Both the position numbers and the translations under genes were made by a program. From positions 62,001 through 126,000 of the forward strand of contig JANQEE010000013.1 of NCBI GenBank assembly GCA_028278525.1: 64,000 nucleotides of DNA, given 5' to 3'. The DNA is from Minwuiaceae bacterium (GTDB lineage Bacteria; Pseudomonadota; Alphaproteobacteria; Minwuiales; Minwuiaceae). The notes under the pieces are model-generated. The model searched no databases. It saw nothing but the letters and a program-made list of their open reading frames with translations, and was not told the origin of the DNA. This document shows positions 14,940 to 53,521 of this stretch, piece by piece. Numbering within the stretch: position 1 is the first letter of the stretch; the number at the start of each line of letters is the position of its first letter.

Positions 14940-15167
14940 ATGGAAGTTGAAGCCGCAAAACTGATCGGCGCCGGCCTCGCCACCATCGCACTCGCCGGTG
15001 TCGGCATCGGTATCGGTAACATCTTCGGCAGCTTCGTCTCCGGCGCGCTGCGCAACCCGGCCGCCGCGCCGAAGGTTTTCGGCAACGTGCTGCTGGGCTT
15101 CGCCCTGACCGAAGCAATCGCGCTGTTCGCGCTGGTCATCGCGCTGCTGCTGCTGTTCGCATTCTAA
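14940..15167 (+). CDS. atpE: ATP synthase Fo subunit c (operon copy)
   Basis: Subunit c, 75 residues, forms the proton-driven rotor ring. Two helices are joined by the RNP loop (R38-N39-P40). The first helix has the glycine repeat GVGIGIGN and the second carries the proton-binding E58 in ALTEAIALF. An AAAAGGAAAC-type ribosome-binding site precedes ATG 14940. A second gene for an almost identical protein is present at 53138-53365 on the minus strand, differing only at residues 3 (V here, A there) and 34 (S here, I there). Confidence 0.97.
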
Positions 15168-50704: not shown

Positions 50705-50752
50705 GTCGCGGAGCCGGGCTCGGTGGTTTAGCTTATGACGAAGGAGTATCCC

Positions 50753-51442
50753 ATGAGCCTGCCGCAGGAAACCATAGCCGCGCACCACGTGGACCCGGCC
50801 GCCTTCGTCGTGGCCAACACGGCAGTGGATTCGCCACCGCTGGTGCCGGAAATCAAACTGCGGCTGGCGAGCGCAATGGTGCCGCTCTGGCACCTGACGG
50901 AAGCCGAACTGGAGGCCACCGGGCAGCCACCGCCGTACTGGGCTTTCGCATGGGCCGGCGGCCAGGCCATGGCGCGCTACCTGCTGGACAATCCCGAAAT
51001 CGCCGCCGGCAAGCGCGTGCTGGATTTGGGCAGCGGTTCCGGCCTGGTCGGCATCGCAGCGCTGAAATGCGGCGCAACGGCGGTAACGGCGGCCGATACG
51101 GACCGGTTCGCAGCAGCCGCGGCAGCGATCAATGCCGATCTCAATGGAGTAACGCTCGATTGCACCGATAATGACCTGCTGGACGGCCCGGGGCTCGGCT
51201 GGAACCTGGTCGTCGCCGGCGACGTGTTCTTCGAACAGCCGATGGCGGGCCGGATGGAAGCCTGGTTGCGGCATCTCGCCGGCGCGGCCACCGTCCTGAT
51301 CGGCGACCCCGGGCGGACCTATCTACCGAAAACCGGACTGGTCAAACGCGCGAGCTTCAGGGTCGCAACCAGCCGGGAATTGGAGGATTCCGACATCCGC
51401 AGCACCCATGTCTGGCAAATGATGCCGAACGCCACGCATTGA
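50753..51442 (+). CDS. ETF-beta lysine methyltransferase-like (METTL20 family) protein
   Basis: Class I SAM methyltransferase of 229 residues. PPPYWAFAWAGGQAMARYLL followed by VLDLGSGSGLVGIAALKCGA and ADTDRFAAAAAAINADLN closely follows the METTL20/ETFBKMT family, whose bacterial members trimethylate lysines of electron transfer flavoprotein beta. Post-motif I and the GDVFFEQPM segment (D/E..F family signature) are present. ATG 50753 has AAGGAG 6 bases upstream. Divergent from rsmE, 31 bases before ubiA. No ETF genes in the window. Confidence 0.8.
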   Translation: MSLPQETIAAHHVDPAAFVVANTAVDSPPLVPEIKLRLASAMVPLWHLTEAELEATGQPPPYWAFAWAGGQAMARYLLDNPEIAAGKRVLDLGSGSGLVGIAALKCGATAVTAADTDRFAAAAAAINADLNGVTLDCTDNDLLDGPGLGWNLVVAGDVFFEQPMAGRMEAWLRHLAGAATVLIGDPGRTYLPKTGLVKRASFRVATSRELEDSDIRSTHVWQMMPNATH

Positions 51443-51473: not shown

Positions 51474-52397
51474 ATGAACCATCGGTCGCACACCATCGCC
51501 GACGCACCGGTCGACAATTGGGTGGACCGCCTGGCTCCGGCCGGGCTCAGGCCGTATCTGAAACTCGCCCGCATGGACCGGCCGATCGGTACCTGGCTGC
51601 TGCTCTGGCCCTGCTGGTGGTCGATCGCGCTCGCCGCGCCGGCCGGCACATGGCCGGACCTTTGGCTACTGGTCCTGTTCGGCATCGGCGCGCTGGTGAT
51701 GCGCGGCGCGGGCTGCACCTTCAACGATATCGTCGACCGCGATTTCGACTCCCGGGTCGAGCGCACGCGCCTCCGCCCAATTCCGGCCGGCCAAGTCAGT
51801 CTCAAACAGGCCATTGCCTGGATGGTGCTTTTAAGCCTCGTCGGTTTCGTGATCCTGCTCCAGTTCAATATATTCGCCATCGGCGTCGGCGTGGCGTCGC
51901 TCGCGCTGGTCGCCGCCTATCCGTTCATGAAGCGGATCACCTACTGGCCGCAAGCCTGGCTCGGCCTCACCTTCAATTGGGGCGCATTGCTTGGTTGGGC
52001 GGCGGTGACCGGTAATCTAGGCCCGGCGCCGCTGACGCTCTATGCCGCCGGCCTATTCTGGACGCTCGGCTACGACACCATCTACGCCCACCAGGACAAG
52101 GAAGACGATGCCCTGATCGGCGTCAAATCGACGGCACTGAAGCTCGGCCAGCGTACGCGGCCGTGGCTGTTCGTCTTCTACGCCGTGGCGACCGCCGGCA
52201 TCGCCGCCGCCGGCTTCCTTGCCGGCACGGGCTGGCCATTCTATCTCGGTCTCATGATCGCGGCCGGCCATCTGGCCTGGCAGGCGGTTCGCGTGGACAT
52301 CGACGATTCTGCCGACTGCCTTGCCAAGTTCCAGTCCAACACCCTGTTCGGCTGGCTTCTGTTCGGCGCGATCGTCGCGGGCGGGCTGGCGGCATGA
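51474..52397 (+). CDS. ubiA: 4-hydroxybenzoate polyprenyltransferase
   Basis: UbiA, 307 residues, an integral membrane enzyme attaching the polyprenyl chain to 4-hydroxybenzoate in ubiquinone synthesis. Asp-rich motifs NDIVDRDFDSRVERTRLRPI and YDTIYAHQDKEDDALIG are diagnostic, and ARMDRPIGTWLLLWPCWWS is the standard N-terminal segment. Eight to nine membrane helices. Its stop overlaps the DCC gene start (ATGA). ubiD, the next pathway function, is 1.1 kb downstream. Confidence 0.96.
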   Translation: MNHRSHTIADAPVDNWVDRLAPAGLRPYLKLARMDRPIGTWLLLWPCWWSIALAAPAGTWPDLWLLVLFGIGALVMRGAGCTFNDIVDRDFDSRVERTRLRPIPAGQVSLKQAIAWMVLLSLVGFVILLQFNIFAIGVGVASLALVAAYPFMKRITYWPQAWLGLTFNWGALLGWAAVTGNLGPAPLTLYAAGLFWTLGYDTIYAHQDKEDDALIGVKSTALKLGQRTRPWLFVFYAVATAGIAAAGFLAGTGWPFYLGLMIAAGHLAWQAVRVDIDDSADCLAKFQSNTLFGWLLFGAIVAGGLAA

Positions 52398-52777
52398 CCG
52401 ACAAGATCACCACCTACTATTACGGCGACTGCCCGGTATGCGGCACCGAAATCGGGCATTACAAACGGATCTGTGCGGGTTCATCGGTGCTGGATTGGCG
52501 CGATATCAGCGCCAACCCCGATATCCTCGCCCATCTCGGCATCGATATCGCCTCGCTGAAACGCCGCCTGCATGTGATCGACGCCCAAGGCAACGTCCAT
52601 GTCGGCGTGCCCGCCTTCGCGGTGCTCTGGTCAGAGATGCCCCGCTACCGTTGGCTTGGCCGGCTGGTCCGGCTGCCGATTATCCGCACGCTTGCCGCCG
52701 GTTTGTACGAAGTCCTGGCGGCGCTTCTGTTCGCCTACAACAGGCGCCGCGAAGCGCGCCAGCACAAGACGGCCTAA
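52394..52777 (+). CDS. DCC-family (DUF393) thiol-disulfide oxidoreductase-like protein
   Basis: Protein of 127 residues in the DUF393/DCC family. The name-giving motif is YYYGDCPVCGTEIGHYK near residue 9, a thioredoxin-like CxxC. WRDISANPD and HVGVPAFAVLWSEMPRYRWL follow the family pattern. Function is unproven. Translationally coupled to ubiA by ATGA overlap; the 3' end overlaps the convergent membrane-protein gene by 4 bases. Confidence 0.86.
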   Translation: MTDKITTYYYGDCPVCGTEIGHYKRICAGSSVLDWRDISANPDILAHLGIDIASLKRRLHVIDAQGNVHVGVPAFAVLWSEMPRYRWLGRLVRLPIIRTLAAGLYEVLAALLFAYNRRREARQHKTA

Positions 52778-53121
52778 GCCTTGCCCGAAGCTGCAGCCTC
52801 CGCCGCTTCAGCCAGGTCCATTTCCTCATAGAAGATGTCGGGCACTTTGTTGACCCGCCGGTAGGCGTCGTAGGCCGCTTCGAAGCGGTCGAAGTCCCGT
52901 TTCAGGCTGGCGGCGACGACTACGTTCAGCACCAGAATGCCGAGCGTCGCGGCGGCCGCAACGATAACCCCGATCAGCGCTGCCAAGGCAATCGCCACCG
53001 GCTCGAAATAGTCGGTGAACCAGGCGCCGGCCGCCGCGGCGAGGCCGATCGCGACGATCAGCGCCAGCGTCTTGTAGAACGGCCGCGCGTAGTCGGTGAG
53101 CAGGAATTTGAGCATGTACAT
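52774..53121 (-). CDS. Unrecognised two-helix membrane protein downstream of the second atpE
   Basis: Protein of 115 residues: a short basic/aromatic N-terminus (KFLLTDYARPFYK), two hydrophobic helices (about residues 18-37 and 42-71, Ala/Val/Ile-rich with no charges), then a charged helical C-terminus (LKRDFDRFEAAYDAYRRVNK, then EEMDLAEAAEAA). GGGAGA precedes ATG 53121. It starts 16 bases after the atpE2 stop, so the two are surely co-transcribed. It does not resemble AtpI, subunit b or any family I know. A role linked to the second c subunit is an inference from the operon only. Confidence 0.72.
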   Translation of the reverse strand: MYMLKFLLTDYARPFYKTLALIVAIGLAAAAGAWFTDYFEPVAIALAALIGVIVAAAATLGILVLNVVVAASLKRDFDRFEAAYDAYRRVNKVPDIFYEEMDLAEAAEAAASGKA

Positions 53122-53137
53122 AATCGTTTCTCCCGCT

Positions 53138-53377
<240 letters not shown>

Positions 53378-53446
53378 TTACCGGTTACGCGCACCTAAAG
53401 CCCGGTGCCTCACACTAGAGATAAGCGCTCCGGGCCGTCGGTTAAA

Positions 53447-53490
53447 TTACCTGAGAGGTAAGGCGGCCAAGGCCGAATTTGGCCGCTTTA
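53447..53490. promoter_or_regulatory. Two overlapping hairpins between atpE2 and ubiD
   Basis: TTACCT-GAG-AGGTAA (53447-53461) and a second stem built on GCGGCCAA (53463-53470) and TTGGCCGC (53479-53486). The latter is extended by TAAG/TTTA (53459-53462, 53487-53490) to 12 pairs with one G-T. They share bases 53459-53461, so only one can form fully at a time. The region is the 156-base divergent gap. It may be the 5' UTR of atpE2 or ubiD, or a pair of operators. Confidence 0.5.
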
Positions 53491-53521
53491 CCCCACCACC
53501 GCGCCCGCTATAGTCCCCGCC

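Follow-up and report, generated by a model that had tools for sequence, protein, structure and literature searches.

A maintained ectopic gene for ATP synthase subunit c and an adjacent, probably coding, orphan reading frame in a Minwuiaceae bacterium

The genome of a Minwuiaceae bacterium (5.95 Mb in 71 contigs) contains, apart from its ATP synthase cluster, a second gene for the F-type subunit c, atpE2, whose substitution pattern points to maintenance by purifying selection. It is followed by an orphan open reading frame, here called X, which is probably coding and whose product is predicted to fold into a helical hairpin. Both lie in the analyzed stretch of 64,000 nucleotides (contig JANQEE010000013.1, positions 62,001 to 126,000), below referred to as the window. 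The relevant features, in window coordinates, are:

14940..15167, plus strand: atpE1, canonical subunit c gene of the atpI-atpB-atpE-atpF'-atpF cluster, likely parent copy
52397..52777, plus strand: gene of a DCC1-like thiol-disulfide oxidoreductase, convergent with X (PF04134, 66.8 bits)
52774..53121, minus strand: X, open reading frame of 115 amino acids with an ATG start and coding-like codon use; orphan whose product is predicted to be a membrane protein of two helices and a charged, helical tail
53122..53137, minus strand: spacer of 16 bases between atpE2 and X, AGCGGGAGAAACGATT, with the ribosome-binding-like stretch GGGAG
53138..53365, minus strand: atpE2, second gene for the F-type subunit c, at an ectopic site, encoding 75 amino acids (PF00137, NCBIfam NF005733)
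53366..53521, no strand assigned: intergenic region of 156 bases between the divergent genes atpE2 (minus) and ubiD (plus)

AtpE2 is recognized both by the Pfam family PF00137 (51.4 bits, cut-off 24) and by the NCBIfam F0F1 subunit c family NF005733 (89.4 bits, cut-off 85). It retains the ion-binding Glu58, the carboxylate of helix 2 (GFALTEA), and the polar RNP loop (ALRNP). The main cluster atpI-atpB-atpE-atpF'-atpF occupies 13.7-16.2 kb of the window and includes an ordinary AtpI. AtpE2 differs from AtpE1 of this cluster at two of the 75 residues, V3A and S34I (97% identity). The genes differ at 27 nucleotides, with 22 synonymous against 2 replacement codon changes (NG86: dN 0.025, dS 0.48, dN/dS about 0.05). 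Since nearly all differences are synonymous, atpE2 is maintained by purifying selection; by this comparison it is an older duplicate, neither a recent copy nor a decaying one. The flanks of the two genes are unrelated. In every readable comparison with the c genes of related species atpE2 shows more synonymous differences than atpE1. Thus atpE2 looks like the derived copy, and atpE1 is the likely parent. Of 94 c sequences compared, AtpE2 alone has Ile at position 34, a site towards the cytoplasmic end of helix 1; the other 93 have S, A, T, Q or N there.

Separate extra c genes are rare. More than one strong c match was found in only 3 of 385 genomes of the class, the source genome included, and atpE2 is the one case in this sample of a separate and near-identical c gene. 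Each of the eight same-family genomes sampled has a single c gene. Two candidate parallels were rejected. A second c in G354 (L074, G354:C34) has a nad1-like neighbour and occurs with nad-like genes; given this neighbour, the contig is probably mitochondrial contamination. The double c of G139 is fused and lies inside its own operon: in this small alphaproteobacterial genome (0.8 Mb), the F-type operon encodes one double-hairpin c, a fused protein of 162 amino acids (L080:1213-1701). In GTDB r220, each of the best 80 c loci is an operon copy, 79 having an AtpB match and the last being an incomplete locus with b' downstream; none of these 80 has a match to X. Some plasmid DNA matches to atpE2 were candidate orphans; the three that were read are operon copies, having AtpB upstream and b' downstream. 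A tblastn search of c in plasmids yielded no match, for which the low-complexity filter may account.

Multiple c genes are known from several bacteria. Acetobacterium woodii and Clostridium aceticum have them as neighbours within the atp operon, and the identical A. woodii subunits c2 and c3 are encoded by separate genes (PMC7911925). The Minwuiaceae genome is similar in encoding the rotor subunit more than once; however, atpE2 is situated 38 kb from the atp operon, alone and paired with the orphan X. Photobacterium profundum SS9 likewise has two atpE genes, expressed in a condition-dependent manner, but there each belongs to one of two complete F-ATPase loci, whereas here only c is duplicated (PMC10054830). 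Sporadic, species-specific duplications of single ATP synthase subunits outside the main locus are known across bacteria (PMC4154653). In the portions of that survey used here, duplicated c genes accompany a full or Fo locus or an N-ATPase, or lie within the locus, and a lone ectopic near-identical c of the present kind is not among them.

X and atpE2 are flanked by ubiA and the DCC1-like gene on one side and by ubiD on the other. In a genome of the same family, G001, the gap between ubiA and ubiD is 26 bases and contains no DCC1, X or atpE2. As this junction is empty, the block was either gained in the lineage of the source genome or lost in G001. A repeat search around the X-atpE2 locus gave no sign of an insertion element. 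The promoter or promoters of the divergent genes atpE2 and ubiD must lie in the region between them; a scan of the minus strand found no sigma-70-type match there. The stretch AAGGAG is situated 7 bases 5' of the atpE2 ATG. Just upstream of ubiA, at 50735-51439 on the plus strand, there is a methyltransferase gene with Methyltransf_16 and PrmA matches; in G001, the interval from the rsmE-like gene to ubiA lacks it. The enzyme presumably resembles the METTL20-type protein lysine methyltransferases.

The first-pass annotation had reported a frame with its own good ribosome-binding site 16 bases downstream of atpE2, and it is present as claimed: it encodes 115 residues and begins 16 bases past the atpE2 stop codon, and the Shine-Dalgarno-like GGGAG lies about 8 bases 5' of the X ATG. 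The frame scores 0.64 bits per codon, whereas the other five frames do not exceed 0.16. GC content at its three codon positions is 0.66, 0.42 and 0.83, the same profile as in the genes of UbiD and AtpE2. Since codon usage and codon-position GC match the neighbouring genes and the score is far above those of the other five frames, X is probably a real gene. Its stop codon touches, and slightly overlaps, that of the convergent DCC1-like gene. The sequence scan found no terminator-like site between atpE2 and X. From their spacing and common strand, the two genes are probably transcribed as one message.

The X protein contains 24% alanine and has two strongly hydrophobic segments, with hydropathy maxima near residues 28 and 55, separated by a short acidic loop. 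Net charges are +2 at the N-terminus, -2 in the loop, +2 in the first half of the tail and -5 at its end. Composition, hydropathy and charge thus bear out the earlier description of two uncharged Ala/Val-rich segments with a charged tail containing F and Y. The charge pattern suggests an N-in/C-in topology with both ends cytoplasmic. The AlphaFold2 model, built from the single sequence, is a helical hairpin with helices at 2-37, 40-91 and 98-111 (mean pLDDT 73, pTM 0.39).

Nothing significant was found for X in Pfam, NCBIfam, PHROGs or PDB sequences, and these scans agree with the first-pass view that it is neither AtpI nor subunit b. The best family matches, DUF443, LapA_dom and EpaQ, are at chance level and were rejected. 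No homologues were found in 60 relatives or in the eight sampled genomes of the same family, nor in 385 genomes of the class and 399 of the phylum. Weak matches in the class genomes were rejected, as they lie inside long frames (304-1358 amino acids) and seem to be due to hydrophobic segments matching by chance. Plasmids and phages gave no homologues, and neither did pattern scans of GTDB r220 (84,980 species) and IMG/VR viral contigs; these scans need exact conserved octapeptides, so that remote homologues could escape, and the genome collections are samples. Foldseek found no PDB fold matching the model, and there is no convincing paralogue in the source genome. As no search produced a homologue, neither a conserved X-atpE pairing nor an X homologue away from atpE was seen. 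There is no second pair on which conservation could be judged, and the co-occurrence amounts to one observation. X, like AtpE2, is a lineage-specific protein, and its pairing with atpE2 is real and seen once.

The source genome contains other rotary ATPase genes. An orphan Fo pair, atpB2-atpE3, lies at about 47.4-48.4 kb of contig C37 (L070:7401-8168 and the following c gene, L005:1477-1704). It encodes a subunit a of 255 amino acids and a diverged c of 75 amino acids with intact LLGFALTEA; b and F1 genes are missing, and genes for LysR, UspA-like and Mrp/Na+-H+ antiporter-like proteins are located nearby. The pair recurs in a similar setting in a genome of another family (G191, L165:11174-12208), with AtpB2 83% identical, and was found in no more than two of 190 class genomes. 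Having been seen twice, and X once, it is the stronger lead. Contig C5 (L071:1-7100) carries an operon of an A/V-type ATPase (B-like, I, double-hairpin K, E and others). Together with the F-type cluster this makes at least two rotary ATPases in the genome, besides the extra Fo genes.

Among known systems, X may be compared with AtpI, a small membrane protein that aids c-ring assembly; the A. woodii c-ring requires its own AtpI (PMC8904574). Like AtpI/UncI (PF09527, PF03899), which has two membrane helices, X is predicted to be a small two-helix membrane protein, and its gene adjoins an Fo gene. However, it has no family match, and its gene follows that of c, whereas the AtpI gene lies upstream of that of a. 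Pfam and NCBIfam gave no AtpI match to X even at E<=1. X was compared by HHalign with a profile of 75 alphaproteobacterial AtpI sequences, using 55 membrane-protein segments and 60 block shuffles as controls. Its score, 24.3, corresponds to a probability of only 25%; it exceeds those of all 55 real membrane-protein segments (best 20.8) and of 59 of the 60 shuffles, and one shuffle exceeds it. The loop signature LD..LGT.P, present in the listed AtpI sequences, is missing from X. The resemblance may be regarded as a hint, not as membership. Two other assignments were rejected. Subunit c has the opposite topology to that predicted for X, which has no acidic residue among residues 41-73 and no match to PF00137. 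Subunits b and b' have one membrane helix and a long, hydrophilic helical stalk, whereas X has two hydrophobic segments, a short tail and no family match.

Our tentative explanation is that atpE2 and X form a two-gene unit specific to this lineage, in which X helps to insert or assemble c subunits and AtpE2 feeds the ordinary ring. Being nearly identical to AtpE1, AtpE2 most likely joins and mixes into the ordinary c-ring. Under its own promoter, atpE2 would provide extra or differently timed c subunits. X, probably made from the atpE2 message, would form an N-in/C-in hairpin in the membrane and place its helical tail on the cytoplasmic side. The most economical suggestion is that it would aid the insertion or assembly of c subunits from the shared message, in the manner of AtpI. 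This assembly-factor role of X is putative. The explanation agrees with the maintenance of atpE2 and of its ion-binding glutamate, and with the coding-like X, short same-strand spacer and predicted hairpin. Further points in its favour are the separate extra copy, unique among the 385 class genomes, in a unit gained locally or lost elsewhere, the AtpI-profile score above the membrane controls, and the A. woodii precedents (PMC7911925, PMC8904574). On the other hand, the pair occurs in one genome only, and the main operon already has an ordinary AtpI. The HHalign probability of 25%, the higher-scoring shuffle and the missing AtpI signature also speak against this role, as does the single-sequence model with its pTM of 0.39 and no PDB fold match.

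Almost as likely, and of about equal weight, is that X is an unrelated lineage-specific membrane protein, perhaps recently arisen, which shares only the promoter with atpE2 and was gained with or near the duplicated gene when DNA entered between ubiA and ubiD. AtpE2 alone would then be functional, as a dosage or regulatory duplicate. Adjacency is indeed the sole tie between X and c, no search found a homologue, even in the eight genomes of the same family, and the order ubiA-DCC1-X-atpE2-ubiD against ubiA-ubiD in G001 indicates a rearranged region. However, an unrelated X is less easily reconciled with the tight 16-base spacing, the ribosome-binding site of its own and the good codon usage, or with an AtpI-like profile score that, although weak, exceeds the membrane controls.

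It is unlikely that X is a strongly diverged AtpI (PF09527/PF03899) serving the extra c gene. In favour are its similar size, the predicted N-in/C-in topology with two helices, a charged tail on the cytoplasmic side, the adjoining c gene and an HHalign score exceeding those of the 55 membrane segments and of all but one of the 60 shuffles; against it are the absence of a Pfam or NCBIfam AtpI match at E<=1, the HHalign probability of 25%, the one shuffle that outscores X and the missing conserved loop motif. A similarly small chance is given to X being the first example of a new assembly or quality-control factor, distinct from AtpI, for an AtpE2 marked by Ile34, the two genes being a switchable module that alters the supply or composition of the c-ring.

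It is rather improbable that X is a spurious, unexpressed frame. No homologue was found, and this high-GC genome has many long chance frames, but its codon-position GC and codon score fit real genes and are clearly above the five other frames, and it has a good ribosome-binding site, an operon-like position and hydropathy typical of membrane proteins. Very improbable is the first-pass suggestion of an alternative rotor built with AtpE2 and having X as a part or a cap: the extra c gene adjoins X and has its unique Ile34, but with 97% identity to AtpE1 the same ring is expected, helix 2 of X lacks the carboxylate and its predicted topology is reversed, and there is no alternative a or b gene beside atpE2.

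Where c subunits are duplicated, one may ask whether bacteria tune the ATP synthase via the supply of c or the make-up of the ring. Should X be only a passenger, the locus would amount to a plain gene duplication beside an orphan reading frame. If, however, this lone near-identical ectopic c does have a small membrane partner of its own, the question of tuning would become testable by two gene deletions.
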